From Egibacter rhizosphaerae (lineage in GTDB: Bacteria; Actinomycetota; Nitriliruptoria; Euzebyales; Egibacteraceae), in the NCBI RefSeq assembly GCF_004322855.1, contig NZ_CP036402.1:868001-932000 (forward strand): a stretch of 64,000 nucleotides of DNA, given 5' to 3'. Positions within the stretch are counted from its first letter, which is position 1. The number at the start of each line of letters is the position of its first letter. Below are positions 3,330 through 22,920 of the stretch, one piece after another. The translations under genes and the position numbers were made by a program. The notes under the pieces are model-generated. The model ran no database searches, had not been told where the DNA came from, and was given only the letters and a program-made list of their open reading frames with translations.

Positions 3330-3764
3330 GCCGCTGCCCGGACTGCCGCTGGTGCTCAGCTGGGAGGGGGGCGATTTCGGTTCGCTGGTCGGCGAGGTCG
3401 AGGCATCGTCGCCGGCATCCAGCTGGGCGACGCCTCGTGGGTGGCCTCGATGCTCGGCGCTGGACTCGCCCTCGTTCCCGCCATGTGGCTCATCGTTGGC
3501 GTCACCGTGGCGCTGTACGGGCTGGCTCCTCGCCTCGCCCCCCTCGGCTGGGCCATCTTCGGCTACGCCGCCCTCGTCACCTTCATGGGAGACGCGCTCG
3601 ACCTGCCCGACGGTGCCCGGGCCCTCTCCCCCTTCCATCACGTACCAGAGCTGCCCGGCGGCGACGTCGACGCCACCGCGCTGCTCGTCCTCACGACGAT
3701 CGCAGCCGTCCTGGTCCTGCTCGGCCGAGCCACCCTGCGACGGCGCGACGTCAACGTCACCTAG
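3330..3764 (+). pseudogene. ABC-2 type exporter permease, C-terminal remnant
   Basis: C-terminal part of a large ABC transporter permease of the polyketide-antibiotic exporter type. Visible parts are two hydrophobic segments, the lumenal motif LSPFHHVPELPGGDVDATAL and the terminal GRATLRRRDV. The first few codons (GLPLVLSWEGGDFGSL) lie in another frame, so there is at least one frameshift near 3400. The N-terminal two thirds are missing. It directly follows the fused end of the dehydrogenase remnant, evidence of past rearrangement. Confidence 0.7.
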
Positions 3765-15017: not shown

Positions 15018-15174
15018 AACCGAGCAGGATCCTGATGGTGGTGGACTTGCCCGCGCCGTTCGGCCCGAGAAACCCATGAACCTCGCCAGGCTGCACGGTC
15101 AGGTCGAGGCGGTCGAGCGCGCGGTGGGTGCCGAAGGTCTTGACGAGTTGGCGGATGCCGATTGCGGCGGACAT
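15018..15174 (-). pseudogene. ABC transporter ATP-binding protein, N-terminal stump
   Basis: Only about 52 residues remain: [20 protein letters not shown], then [19 protein letters not shown] with an intact Walker A, after which family similarity stops abruptly at about 15018 and unrelated sequence follows. Its ATG overlaps the TetR stop by one base (TGATG), so this was a TetR-ABC operon whose exporter has been lost by truncation. Confidence 0.85.
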
Positions 15175-15842
15175 CAGGTCCCCTCTTCTGGCGCGGCGGT
15201 GCGGATGGTGCGGACGGTTTCCCTGATGCCGCGGCCCGTATCCGAGTCGGCGAACTCACCCATGGCGGAGTACACGTCGAGCATGGCCATCGGTATGCGG
15301 CCCGATCGGAGGCTCTCCTCCGGGGTCAGGCCAAAGCGGCGGCTGATCCACTCGATGAGCAGCGCCGTGCTCATGTGCATCGCGGTCATCATCGTGGCGG
15401 CGTCGTCAGCGGAATCGCTTCCCGGCGGGAACCGCTCCGGCCAGGCCGAGGTCAGGAACTCCCGTGTGCCGGCGGCCAAGTGGTCGAACACCTCGTCAGC
15501 AGTCTGCGAGCCCTCGAGCGCCGCCCGAGAGAGGTAGCGCATGAGGAGTGGGCCTTCCGCGAACAGGTCGCCGAGGGCGTTCGCATCCGCCAACTGACCC
15601 TTCTCGTGCAGATGCAACACCCGACGGTTGAAGACCTCGATCACCAGCTCATCGCAGGCCACCCGCAGCCCGGCCTTGGTGCCGAAATGATGCTGCACCA
15701 GGCCGAGGGACACCCCCGCCGCGGAAGCGATCCCCCGCATCGTCGCGCCTTCGATGCCCTTCTCCGCGAACTGTTCGAGTGCGGCATCCCGGATCCGAGC
15801 ACGGGCGGTCAGATCCGAAGGCTCGTAGTGGTGGGTACCCAT
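15174..15842 (-). CDS. TetR family transcriptional regulator
   Basis: 222-residue TetR regulator. The HTH spans about residues 12-60 ([17 protein letters not shown], then [20 protein letters not shown]). The C-terminal domain is similar to regulators adjacent to daunorubicin-type ABC exporters. ATG 15842 is chosen; a promoter (TTGACG/TATCGT) with an embedded perfect palindrome lies immediately upstream, indicating autoregulation. Its co-transcribed target, an ABC ATPase, is reduced to a stump, so this is a regulator that has lost its operon. Confidence 0.9.
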
Positions 15843-15849
15843 GCGATGG

Positions 15850-15878
15850 ACGATACGCTCGTATCGGAAGCACGTCAA
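15850..15878 (-). promoter_or_regulatory. TetR promoter with embedded operator
   Basis: On the minus strand a -35 TTGACG (15878-15873) and -10 TATCGT (15855-15850) are 17 bp apart. The perfect inverted repeat CGATACG-CT-CGTATCG (15851-15866) covers the -10 and the adjoining spacer. The position predicts repression by the TetR protein encoded immediately downstream. Confidence 0.75.
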
Positions 15879-16354
15879 CCGTATTGTAACAACCCGCCCG
15901 AGGGCCGCCCGGGTGCGCTGATGGCGTTCGTGAACGGCGCCGAGGCCCTCGCGCTCGGGCGGCTCGAACCCTCGGCGCGGCGCGGATCCTCGGCGCCCGC
16001 GCGCGCTTCTTCGGTCCTCGCGCCGCGACCCCGATCGACTGTCACGAGACCGCCTGGCAACAGCAGCGCTCGACCCGCTGCGGGTACTTCGCGCACGTTT
16101 CCCCGGGAACGTGGACCCAGCACGGCGCCGCGCCGCGCCGCCCCGTTGGCCGGGTGCACTGGGCGACAGCGAGACCGCGACCTCCTGGGTTCGGCTAATG
16201 GACGGGGAGTCTCCTCGGGTGAGCGTGCGGCGGCGGAGATGCTCGGGGCCCTTCCGTCGCGCACGGGATCGTGAAACCCCCACGTGTGGATCGGCCAGGC
16301 CCGGGTAGCCCGGGGACGCCCGACGCAACGAAGCCAACACGAAAGGGAGACCCT
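15879..16354 (+). other. intergenic region, no gene recognised
   Basis: Very GC-rich stretch; open frames on both strands lack recognisable protein similarity or start signals. The ribosome-binding sequence AAAGGGAGA of the small gene at 16355 lies at its end. Confidence 0.35.
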
Positions 16355-16657: not shown

Positions 16658-17035
16658 TCAGGCGGGGCGGATGAGGATCTTGCCGATGGCGTGCCCCGAC
16701 TCGACCTCTGCGAGGGCCTCGCGGGCCTGCTCGAGCGGGTAGCTGCCGGTGACGTGCGGGTCGACGAGGCCGTACTGGATGACGCTGGTCATCTTCTCCA
16801 TCGCCTCCGGGTCGCGCTGTCGGGTCGCACCGCCGAGCTCGGTGACGGCCGGGTCGGCGGCCGACATCACGGGGGCGAGGTCGGTGGCCAGACGTGCAGC
16901 CTCACGCAGGGTCTGACCGCCGACCAGATCCACGACCAAGTCCACACCCTCAGGCACCACGTCACGGACCTGTGCAGCGAACCCGTCACCCGAAGCAACG
17001 TGGGTGGCTCCGGTTGACTCCACCAGGCGGCGTTT
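16658..17035 (-). pseudogene. zinc-type dehydrogenase/quinone oxidoreductase, C-terminal half
   Basis: About 121 codons of the C-terminal half remain: STGATHVASGDG (end of Rossmann helix), DLVVDLVGGQTLREAARL, then SYPLEQAREALAEVESGHAI and GKILIRP, the canonical C-terminus of MDR/quinone oxidoreductases. The N-terminal GroES-like domain and GxGxxG motif are missing; the sequence upstream is unrelated. A second remnant of this superfamily is at 3045 and an intact member at 23185. Confidence 0.8.
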
Positions 17036-17055
17036 GCAGATCGGGGTGTGGTTAC

Positions 17056-17076
17056 CTGACCTAGGTCAGACTCGCG
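17056..17076 (+). promoter_or_regulatory. metal-locus cis-element, copy 1 (perfect 14-bp palindrome)
   Basis: CTGACCTAGGTCAG (17056-17069) is a perfect palindrome followed by ACTCGCG. A 20-base block at 17057-17076 matches 16 of 20 bases in a second copy at 17573-17592. Copy 1 lies about 70-90 bases before the HMA gene and copy 2 about 75-95 bases before the ATPase gene. A shared operator for a metal-responsive regulator is the simplest reading; that regulator is not in the window. Confidence 0.65.
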
Positions 17077-17147
17077 CGTGGCGGTGGGCCTAACGTTGCT
17101 CTTGCCAGACCACAGGCAAGGGACACATCGGAAAGGGAATCACCACC

Positions 17148-17387
17148 ATGAGCACCACGACCTCCAACCCCACCCGCACCGTGCTGCGCGCCGAGGGCTT
17201 CTCCTGCCCCTCGTGCGTGTCGAAGATCGAAAAGCGAGTCGGCCGTGTCGACGGCGTGTCCAACGTCAAGGTGCATTTCGCGTCGGCCCGAATCGAGGTC
17301 GACCACGACCCGGACGTCGCTAGCGTCGACCAGCTGGTCGCCGCCGTGGCCAAGGCGGGCTACACCGCTCGGCCGACCGCCTTCTAA
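17148..17387 (+). CDS. heavy-metal-associated (HMA) domain protein, CopZ-like metallochaperone
   Basis: 79-residue single HMA domain (ferredoxin-like fold). The metal-binding CxxC is in FSCPSCVSKIEKRVGRVDGV, with typical strands VKVHFASARIEVDHD and terminal VAKAGYTA. It is likely a cytosolic chaperone delivering a soft metal (Cu+, Zn2+ or similar) to the P-type ATPase encoded at 17669, which lacks its own N-terminal HMA domain. ATG 17148 is preceded by GGAAAGGGAATCACC. A hairpin at 17477 probably ends its transcript. Confidence 0.88.
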   Translation: MSTTTSNPTRTVLRAEGFSCPSCVSKIEKRVGRVDGVSNVKVHFASARIEVDHDPDVASVDQLVAAVAKAGYTARPTAF

Positions 17388-17411
17388 GGCAGCGTCGAAC
17401 GGCCTTCGCCC

Positions 17412-17427
17412 GGCCCCTATCGGGGCC
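17412..17427 (+). terminator. short GC hairpin after HMA gene
   Basis: GGCCCC-TATC-GGGGCC, a perfect 6-bp stem 24 bases after the HMA stop codon, without a following T-run. It may act alone or with the larger hairpin at 17477. Confidence 0.45.
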
Positions 17428-17476
17428 TTGCCGGGGTTCACCCAAGTCCTCAACCGTTCTACCCCCGGCCCGGACC

Positions 17477-17516
17477 TGGCACCGCCTGCGGGATCTCACG
17501 ATCCCAGGCGGTGCCA
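17477..17516 (+). terminator. long hairpin separating HMA and ATPase genes
   Basis: Arms TGGCACCGCCTG...GGATC and GATCCCAGGCGGTGCCA pair almost perfectly with a 4-base TCAC loop and a small bulge. It lies between the HMA gene and the second cis-element, so the two metal genes are probably separate transcripts. No T-run follows; attenuation is an alternative. Confidence 0.6.
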
Positions 17517-17572
17517 GCTGCTGTGACGCCCCGGTCCTCGGGACAGACGAACCGAATCGGCCTGCGGCTACA

Positions 17573-17592
17573 TGACCTGCATCAGTCTCGCG
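17573..17592 (+). promoter_or_regulatory. metal-locus cis-element, copy 2
   Basis: TGACCTGCATCAGTCTCGCG shares 16 of 20 positions with 17057-17076, keeping the TGACCT and TCAG half-sites and the CTCGCG tail, but its palindrome is degraded in the centre. It sits 77 bases before the P-type ATPase start. Confidence 0.6.
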
Positions 17593-17668
17593 TCGTAGCC
17601 GCGGCGCACACTGAGCATCGAAGCCCGCACACGGCGGGTGAACGCAGACCAAGCAAGGAGCAACCGCT

Positions 17669-19612
17669 ATGGACACCCTGCGTAACGGCCGGTGGACGGT
17701 CCCAGCGATCTCAGGAGCGCTGATCGTCGTCGGGTTGCTGGCCGGTCGGCTCGCCGGCGTCGACGCCATCGGCGACCCGGCGATGATCGTGGCCGCGATC
17801 GTGGCGGGCACCCCGATCGTGATCAAGGCCTGGCGCGCGCTGCTGGCCAAGGTCGTGGGCATCGACCTGCTGGTCAGCATCGCCGCGATCGGCGCGATCG
17901 TCATCGGCGAGTACTGGGAGGCAGCGGCGGTCACGTTCCTGTTCGCCATCGGCAATGCCCTCGAGTCCGCCACGTTGAACAAGACCCGGTCGGCGCTGGC
18001 CGAACTGGTCGCGGTCGCGCCCGACGTCGCCGTGGTGCTGCGCGAGGGCGAGCAGGTCACCGTCGACGCAGCCGAGGTCGCCGTGGGCGAGACCGTGCTG
18101 GTCAAGAGCGGCGCCAAGGTCCCCGTCGACGGCGAGGTCATCGACGGCACCGGGGCGTTGGACGAGGCATCGATCACCGGAGAGTCCATCCCCGTGGAGA
18201 AGACCGCCGGCGATCAGGTGTTCGCCGGCACGATCTCCCAGGGCGGGTTCTTGCAGGTGCGGGCGACTGGCACCGGGTCGGACACGACGCTGGCGCGGAT
18301 CATCCACCGCGTCGAGGAGGCCCAGGACGCCAAGGCGCGCACCCAGCAGTTCATGGATCGCTTCTCGGCCTGGTACACGCCCGCGATCATGGGACTGGTC
18401 CTCGTGGTCGGCCTGGCCACCGGCAACGTAGTGCTGGCCTTCACCCTGCTGGTCATCGCCTGCCCCGGCGCGTTGGTGATCTCTATCCCGGTGTCGATCG
18501 TGGCCGGCATCGGGCGGGCCGCCAGGGACGGCATCCTGATCAAGGGCGGCGAGTACCTTGAGACCTCGGCCAAGGTCAGCGCCGTCGCGCTCGACAAGAC
18601 CGGCACGCTGACCCGCGGTCGCCCACAGTTGACCGATGTGGTCGCGCTCGACGCCGACAGCGAGCGAGCCGACGTTCTGGCCTGGGCTGCCCGGGCCGAG
18701 GCCGGCTCCGAGCACCCCCTGGCCCGGCCCATCCTGACCGCGGCCGCTGACGAGGGCCTGGACGTGACCGGTCTGCCCGACACGACCGAGCCGATCGCCG
18801 GCAAAGGCATCGCCGCCACCATCCAGGGGCGGCGGGTCCTGGTCGGAAACGCCGCTTTGCTCGACCAGCACCACATCGTCGACGTGGTCGGCGCCGGCGA
18901 GATCGCCGCGACGCTGGCCGCCGCGGGGCGCACGCCCATGATCGTCGCCCTCGACGACCGGGTCCTCGGCGTACTCGCCGTGGCCGATCAAGTCCGCGAG
19001 GGGGCCGCGCAGATGGTCACCGACCTGCACGAGGCCGGGGTCGACACCGTCGTCATGCTCACCGGCGACGCTCCGCTCGTCGCCCAGGCCGTCGGGCAGG
19101 CCGCCGGCATCGACGAGGTCCGCGCCGGCCTGCTGCCCGAGGACAAGCTCGACGCCGTCGCCGACCTCCAGCGTCAGGGCCACACCGTGGCCATGGTCGG
19201 CGACGGCGTCAACGACGCCCCCGCGCTGGCCACCGCCGACATCGGCATCGCCATGGGCGCGGCCGGCTCAGCCGTGGCGGTCGAGACCGCCGACATCGCC
19301 TTGATGGCCGACAACCTGGGCAAGCTGCCCGAGGCCGTCGCCCTCGCCCGGCGCACCGTCAACAACATGCGCCAGAACATCACCGTCGCATTGGGAACCG
19401 TCGCGGTCCTCCTCGCCGGCGTGCTCTTCGGCGACGTCACCATGTCGGTGGGCATGCTCGTCCACGAAGCATCCGTCCTGGTCGTCATCGCCAACGCCAT
19501 GCGCCTGCTCCGCCACCAGCCCGCCCCCAGCACCCGCGCGGCGACCGGCTCCGGGGCCCCGGCGTCTGCCGGATCCACCCCGGAAACCGCCCTCGGGGCC
19601 AAGACGCGCTAG
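17669..19612 (+). CDS. heavy metal translocating P1B-type ATPase with CPG motif
   Basis: 647-residue membrane ATPase exporting a soft metal ion. TGES at 170-173 (actuator), the transmembrane metal motif CPG at 265-267 (ACPGALVISIPVS), phosphorylation DKTGT at 309-313, the EHPLARP histidine motif and GDGVNDAPAL are all present, so it should be catalytically competent. There is no N-terminal HMA domain; the protein begins directly with the first membrane helix, and the chaperone is encoded separately at 17148. The CPG in place of the common CPC leaves the metal unassigned. The C-terminal 35 residues are Pro/Ala-rich and lack Cys or His. Confidence 0.93.
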   Translation: MDTLRNGRWTVPAISGALIVVGLLAGRLAGVDAIGDPAMIVAAIVAGTPIVIKAWRALLAKVVGIDLLVSIAAIGAIVIGEYWEAAAVTFLFAIGNALESATLNKTRSALAELVAVAPDVAVVLREGEQVTVDAAEVAVGETVLVKSGAKVPVDGEVIDGTGALDEASITGESIPVEKTAGDQVFAGTISQGGFLQVRATGTGSDTTLARIIHRVEEAQDAKARTQQFMDRFSAWYTPAIMGLVLVVGLATGNVVLAFTLLVIACPGALVISIPVSIVAGIGRAARDGILIKGGEYLETSAKVSAVALDKTGTLTRGRPQLTDVVALDADSERADVLAWAARAEAGSEHPLARPILTAAADEGLDVTGLPDTTEPIAGKGIAATIQGRRVLVGNAALLDQHHIVDVVGAGEIAATLAAAGRTPMIVALDDRVLGVLAVADQVREGAAQMVTDLHEAGVDTVVMLTGDAPLVAQAVGQAAGIDEVRAGLLPEDKLDAVADLQRQGHTVAMVGDGVNDAPALATADIGIAMGAAGSAVAVETADIALMADNLGKLPEAVALARRTVNNMRQNITVALGTVAVLLAGVLFGDVTMSVGMLVHEASVLVVIANAMRLLRHQPAPSTRAATGSGAPASAGSTPETALGAKTR

Positions 19613-21818: not shown

Positions 21819-22845
21819 TCAGGCGGGTGCGGGCGGTAGGGCGCGCAATCGCTGGAACGCGGCGAGCAGTTCGGGGGTCCAGGGCCAGTCGGCGGCCAGC
21901 CGCAGGATGGTGCGCCGGCCGCTGCGGACCACGCGGGCGGCGGTGTGTAGCAGCTGGTAGCGCAGCCGTTTGGGTTCGGCTCTGGCCAGCTCCCCTGAGA
22001 GGGTCAGCGTCTGGGTCCGGACCTGCAGGTTCATGGCGGTCAGGGCGAGTTGGAGCCAGACGGCGTTGCGGTCGTAGTCGTCGCAGGGCAGGTTGCTCAT
22101 GCCGAGGTCTTTGAGGTTGCGGATGCGGTCCTCGGCGCGGGCGCGGGCCCGGTGGCGCTGCTCGAGGACGGCGATGTCGGCGTCTGGCTGGTCGGTGAGC
22201 AGCGCGGTGAACCGGTAGCCGTCGATGTCGTCGAGGCTCTGCTGCGCGCCGGGGTGCAGCGGTTCGCGGCGGATGATCAGCCGGCTGCCCGCTGGATACT
22301 CGGACAGGTCGATCATGCCGGTGGCCTCGGCGACCGCCGCGCCCTCGCGCAGCTGTCCGTCGGCGGTCAGCGCCGGTTCCCACACCGAGGTGTGCCAGGC
22401 CAGCGTGCGGATGACGGTCTTGACCCGTTCGGAGAGCTCGAAGGAGACCGAGAAGCCGCAGCCGGCCGCGACGGTGTGGGCGAGGAAGTCTTTGGCGGCG
22501 TAGCCCACATCGCCGCGCACCACGACCTCAACATCGTCGGCGAGCTCGGGGAGCCCGGCCAGGGCGGCGTCGAGCAGGCAGATGTGATCGGTGGCGGTGT
22601 TGGACCCGGCGTTGCCCGGGCCCAGCAGGCTGGCCAGCGCCTCGCCGGTGCCGTCGCCGCGGTCAACAAACGCCAGATCCGGGTGGTAGCCGAAGCTGTC
22701 CTTGTAGGTGCCCGCCGCCCCGTCCTTCTCCGAATGGGCGGTCACCAGCGGGGCGCCCAGATCGATGCACAACGGCTCGTCGCTGTCGGCGTCCAGGGCC
22801 GGCGGAGCGCCGCCGGGCAGACCCCACACATGCGCCCGAACCCGC
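21819..22845 (-). mobile_element. IS1380-family transposase, 5'-truncated
   Basis: About 340 C-terminal residues of a DDE transposase of the IS1380 family. It retains CIDLGAPLVTAHSEKDGAAG with the first catalytic Asp, HICLLDAALAGLP, VVVRGDVGYA with the second, and the DRIRNLKDLGMSNLPCDDYD region with the third acidic region and the C-terminal LQLALTAMNL. The N-terminal 100 or so residues and the upstream element end are missing: upstream sequence is a GNAT acetyltransferase stump, so the junction near 22850 is a recombination or deletion point. Mobility in cis is unlikely. Confidence 0.85.
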
Positions 22846-22849
22846 GCCA

Positions 22850-22920
22850 GCCGCCGCCTCGACGAGCGCAGCGACATCCCCGCGCACGACCGGGCGGAGC
22901 GTCACGATCCCGTCGCTCAT
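22850..22920 (-). pseudogene. GNAT acetyltransferase N-terminal stump
   Basis: ATG 22920 followed by SDGIVTLRPVVRGDVAALVE, the typical opening strand and helix of GNAT N-acetyltransferases, which after about 24 residues runs into the truncated IS1380 transposase. The rest of the domain is absent. Confidence 0.55.

Follow-up and report, generated by a model that had tools for sequence, protein, structure and literature searches.

Predicted Crp/Fnr-type operators upstream of the HMA and P1B-ATPase genes of Egibacter rhizosphaerae

Two neighboring genes of the window (the whole stretch of DNA that was analyzed, 64,000 nucleotides of Egibacter rhizosphaerae) encode an HMA metal-binding protein and a metal pump, and each is preceded by a copy of one sequence block. 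Both blocks are most probably operators of the genome's single Crp/Fnr activator, which would act on them from a class II position and in trans, after loss of the regulator gene from the window unit. Under this class II scheme a Crp/Fnr dimer would bind the dyad xTGAY-N4-RTCAx, centered at about -41, and bring in RNA polymerase at a promoter that has a -10 box but needs no -35 box. The HMA metal-binding protein would be expressed from one site and the CPG-type P1B metal pump from the other, with a hairpin separating the two predicted transcripts. The window unit, whose own regulator would have been lost by rearrangement, would most likely be controlled in trans by the Crp/Fnr protein encoded in a second HMA-ATPase-regulator operon (L094), whose promoter has the same extended site.

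The repeated block and its surroundings

The relevant features of the window are:

16658..17023, minus strand: truncated oxidoreductase remnant (zinc-binding-dehydrogenase-type; PF13602; homology to the oxidoreductase of relatives)
17047..17076, plus strand: copy 1 of the shared block, 30 bp, TGTGGTTACCTGACCTAGGTCAGACTCGCG; predicted Crp/Fnr operator of the HMA gene
17056-17069, plus strand: dyad of copy 1, CTGACCTAGGTCAG
17091..17096, plus strand: predicted -10 box TAACGT of copy 1, starting 28.5 nt from the dyad center
17148..17387, plus strand: HMA metal-binding protein, 79 aa, CPSC motif (PF00403, E 2.6e-14)
17476-17517, plus strand: strong intergenic hairpin and likely end of a transcript (region MFE -85.1 kcal/mol, z -3.3; no U-tract)
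17563..17592, plus strand: copy 2 of the shared block, 30 bp, TGCGGCTACATGACCTGCATCAGTCTCGCG; predicted Crp/Fnr operator of the ATPase gene
17572-17585, plus strand: dyad of copy 2, ATGACCTGCATCAG
17607..17612, plus strand: weak -10-like CACACT of copy 2, placed by its sequence and spacing only; without T at -12
17669..19612, plus strand: P1B-type metal ATPase, 647 aa, CPG membrane motif (TIGR01525 and TIGR01512 above cut-off)

The 20-base repeat noted in the preliminary description of this DNA is confirmed: TGACCTAGGTCAGACTCGCG (17057-17076) and TGACCTGCATCAGTCTCGCG (17573-17592) are identical at 16 of 20 positions, and they start 91 nt before the HMA ATG (17148) and 96 nt before the ATPase ATG (17669). 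The likeness extends further upstream, to 30 bp with 23/30 identical positions (17047-17076 vs. 17563-17592). Copy 1 also centers, as described, on a palindrome that is perfect over 14 bp. The repeat alone is only suggestive, because a best 20-mer match of at least 16 between both intergenic regions is reached in 1.4% of Markov resamplings (P about 0.014), and perfect 14-bp palindromes are not rare in themselves (18 in the window). These figures would leave room for a chance match or a functionless duplication. However, such a reading is already contradicted by conservation before orthologous genes at a fixed position, phase and -10 spacing (see below), and its probability is close to nil; the comparative data turn the weak evidence of the repeat into strong evidence.

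Both copies contain a dyad, xTGAY-N4-RTCAx, that by its sequence appears to be of the Crp/Fnr (FNR/DNR/FLP-like) site type, with C or A as the outer base (CTGAC..GTCAG; ATGAC..ATCAG). The register first proposed, TGACCT-N3-TCAG, is off, the unit conserved across relatives being TGAY-N4-RTCA, and the other match of TGACCTNNNTCAG in the window (24966) therefore lacks the required R. As a motif, TGACCTNNNTCAG was dropped, being in the wrong register and close to chance at one mismatch.

The preliminary description found no regulator gene in the window. This holds for Crp/Fnr genes, but an ORF with a TetR-type domain (15174-16340, minus strand) lies upstream of the HMA gene at a distance of about 1 kb, so the window does contain a regulator-type ORF. 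The HMA-ATPase pair is flanked by Rce1-like CAAX-type membrane proteases (PF02517; 13988-14941 and 19881-20966, both plus strand), and a 352-aa ORF (21819-22877, minus strand) has the look of an IS1380-type transposase, judged by eye.

Conservation and promoter geometry

The comparison set consists of 80 loci with pump relatives, taken from the genome collection. Of 37 distinct bacterial upstream regions, 33 have the TGAY-N4-RTCA dyad 45-135 nt before the HMA gene; it is in none of the 11 distinct haloarchaeal upstream regions that served as negative control. The background rate of the dyad is 1.8% per 90 bp, and half-sites with any other spacer occur in at most 4 upstream regions. The same dyad is also present before HMA genes in some Bacillota and Pseudomonadota. 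The preliminary description had proposed a motif search upstream of other genes in this genome and in relatives, and had named lack of conservation before orthologues as an observation that would speak against it; the element is conserved, so this objection falls away.

In 30 of the 33 dyad-bearing bacterial regions the dyad center is followed, at exactly 29 nt, by the start of a TANNNT -10 box. Crp/Fnr activators in the class II position have their dyad centered at about -41.5, and the spacing to TANNNT therefore places the present dyad at this position. In both window copies the spacing is 28.5 nt, about one base below the 29-29.5 nt of the family. Each would thus combine the parts of a Crp/Fnr class II promoter (a TGA-N6-TCA dyad, a distance of about 41.5 bp and a -10 box), with a weak -10 box in copy 2.

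ArsR, CsoR and MerR regulators commonly control P1B pumps, and the preliminary description suggested footprinting with candidates of these families. A metal sensor of this kind would find some further support in a CsoR-like gene near a distant homologue on a Lactiplantibacillus plasmid. Nothing at the present loci pointed to these families, however: the TGAY-N4-RTCA geometry, the class II spacing and the gene that accompanies the pair in relatives all point to Crp/Fnr, and it is very improbable that an ArsR, CsoR or MerR protein uses the blocks. For MerR, PMC1526738 places the palindrome within the 19-20 bp spacer between -35 and -10, whereas the window dyad, at -41.5, is upstream of the -10 box and falls outside such a spacer. 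The preliminary description thus holds up as regards shared regulation but most likely named the wrong regulator families.

The hairpin said to separate the two genes is present (stem at 17476-17517), but without a U-tract, and relatives with two sites also have strong hairpins. A second dyad before the ATPase gene is found only where the gap between HMA and ATPase genes is at least 189 nt (L116, L008, L022, L011, L017, the L010 group and the window), and gaps of up to 151 nt have the first site alone. A second site is missing in four loci whose gaps appear to be 199-252 nt; these gaps are overstated to varying extents, because the pump matches begin at residue 9-39. One locus is an exception (L029, a 288 nt gap and no second site). 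On a Corynebacterium glutamicum plasmid (L097) three near-identical Fnr-type sites at 3554, 3999 and 4893 each precede a separate gene, for HMA, a small hypothetical protein and the pump, respectively. Together, the conserved element, the tie between second site and long gap and the three-site plasmid argue well for what had been proposed for the window, namely two probably independent transcripts under one regulator.

The regulator

Of 43 bacterial loci, 32 have a Crp/Fnr gene in the examined flank, usually at a distance of 75-300 nt from HMA, and 11 have none there. Annotated plasmids carry regulator-HMA-pump clusters in which the regulator is named Crp/Fnr, and in one annotated case the Crp/Fnr gene lies some kilobases from the pump cluster. 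In the pump tree, the window groups with L115, L117, L118/L025, L116 and L009/L114, all of which have a Crp/Fnr gene just 5' of HMA. The window has in this place, on the opposite strand, the C-terminal remnant of an oxidoreductase. In other relatives an oxidoreductase gene comes after the pump gene, and the remnant matches the C-terminal part of its product (residues 181-301) with up to 64% identity. Since its nearest relatives have the adjacent regulator where it has the remnant, the window unit seems to have lost its regulator by rearrangement. The remnant itself is a sign of a rearranged cassette.

The candidate regulator and its operon are found elsewhere in the same genome:

L094:9361-10107, minus strand: Crp/Fnr regulator (PF00027, E 2.4e-17; PF13545, E 1.4e-17)
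L094:9361-12397 (G000:C1 about 3,649,360-3,652,396): second HMA-ATPase-Crp/Fnr operon

The genome encodes two PF00027 proteins. One of them, judged by its sequence, looks like a histidine kinase without a helix-turn-helix. A strong Crp helix-turn-helix occurs in only one, the L094 protein, which combines it with a cNMP-binding-type beta roll and is thus the single Crp/Fnr regulator of the genome. Its gene overlaps the end of a second CPG-type pump gene, itself preceded by a second HMA gene (HMA2). A genome of the same family (G018, locus L119) has the same arrangement, with a regulator 81% identical, and the second operon therefore looks resident. Its pump is only about 55% identical to that of the window. 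Some 2.8 Mb separate the two loci, and control in trans is therefore what we infer.

A dyad is located 96 nt before HMA2. In 4.64 Mb the extended pattern TACNTGAYCTNNRTCA is matched exactly at three places, the two window sites and the HMA2 site; the pattern was drawn from these sites, and the count therefore measures specificity and is not an independent discovery. The other sites of the genome with dyad and TANNNT (L122, L124 and L125) are not upstream of a plausible gene start. A different reading takes the window sites as relics of a rearranged cassette that lost its regulator, through which nothing in the cell now acts. The adjacent regulator is indeed gone, with a gene remnant in its place, and the -10 box of copy 2 is weak (CACACT). 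However, in both copies the dyad and the extended TAC flank are intact and agree with the resident regulator's HMA2 site. Copy 1 also retains a -10 box at a spacing close to that of the family, and relics are an unlikely explanation.

Among 17 regulators of relatives, residues C19, C123, E212, S215 and R216 are invariant, the latter three in the recognition helix, whose E-xx-SR pattern is that of the Fnr type. Two established types were considered and rejected. FNR proper, the [4Fe-4S] oxygen sensor, has four cysteines, and only C19 and C123 are invariant in the 17 relatives. In a cAMP-dependent CRP/GlxR protein the pocket would hold the residues GEL and RTSS of GlxR, which in the alignment are replaced by LGVL and RYPDS. 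The AF2 model of the regulator orthologue of L019 (mean pLDDT 87) matches GlxR and CRP structures. Many members have a His or a further Cys near the two cysteines. The regulator may sense by binding metal, by a disulphide switch, as is reported for FLP, or by a cluster with other ligands. A tentative and rather doubtful idea is that of a Crp/Fnr-fold metalloregulator, a metal-sensing activator in which C19 (N-terminal) and C123 (beta-roll) bind the pumped metal; with similar reserve, such a metalloregulator might be proposed for HMA/CPG-type pump genes in several phyla, outside the usual metal-sensor families.

No description of this regulon, or of a CPG-type or Crp/Fnr-controlled metal pump, was found in the open-access literature searched, which covers few subscription journals, and the regulon may therefore be described in other literature. 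The sequences suggest a widespread, little-described pump group, with CPG and a separate HMA protein, that would be linked in Actinomycetota to a two-cysteine Crp/Fnr activator. Were the regulator to sense metal, one more protein family would join bacterial metal sensing; were it to sense redox or oxygen, metal export would be linked to thiol state or to respiration. In both cases the motif defines a sharp, testable regulon.

Comparison with known systems

The window pump and nearly all its relatives have CPG, whose cysteine is the sole cysteine of the pump in many relatives. At this position P1B-1 and P1B-2 pumps have CPC. The P1B subgroups listed in PMC3573892 have CPC, CPH, SPC (printed SCP) or TPC. 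The best curated subfamily match of the window pump is the cadmium family (TIGR01512), a likeness to the P1B-2 Zn/Cd ATPases ZntA and CadA; it differs from these in having CPG in place of the CPC membrane motif of P1B-2, in its separate HMA protein and in the predicted Crp/Fnr-type control element, where ZntA and CadA are under MerR/ArsR-type control. The fix genes are known to be controlled by Fnr-type regulators, and the copper ATPases FixI/CcoI of the fix operon are P1B pumps as well. By contrast, no cytochrome oxidase assembly genes were noticed beside the window HMA-ATPase pair, and FixI has a CPC motif (PMC5552934) where the window pump has CPG.

The window promoters resemble class II promoters of the FNR/DNR/FixK type in their TTGAY-N4-RTCAA-like dyad about 41.5 bp before the start and in the TANNNT -10 box, but have C or A as the outer base; unlike FNR, the genome's regulator does not have the four-cysteine [4Fe-4S] set. 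The Crp/Fnr scheme appears to recur in distant bacteria together with pumps of the same kind, and would differ from the usual metal-sensor repressors. The closest parallels to the regulator are the FNR-like two-cysteine proteins of Gram-positive bacteria, FLP of Lactobacillus casei, FlpA of Lactococcus lactis and FlpS of Streptococcus suis (PMC5039431), which share the Crp/Fnr fold, two cysteines instead of four (here C19 and C123) and an Fnr-type site with a TGA-N6-TCA core. FlpS, however, is an activator of arginine deiminase genes (PMC5039431), whereas the targets predicted here are HMA and metal-pump genes.
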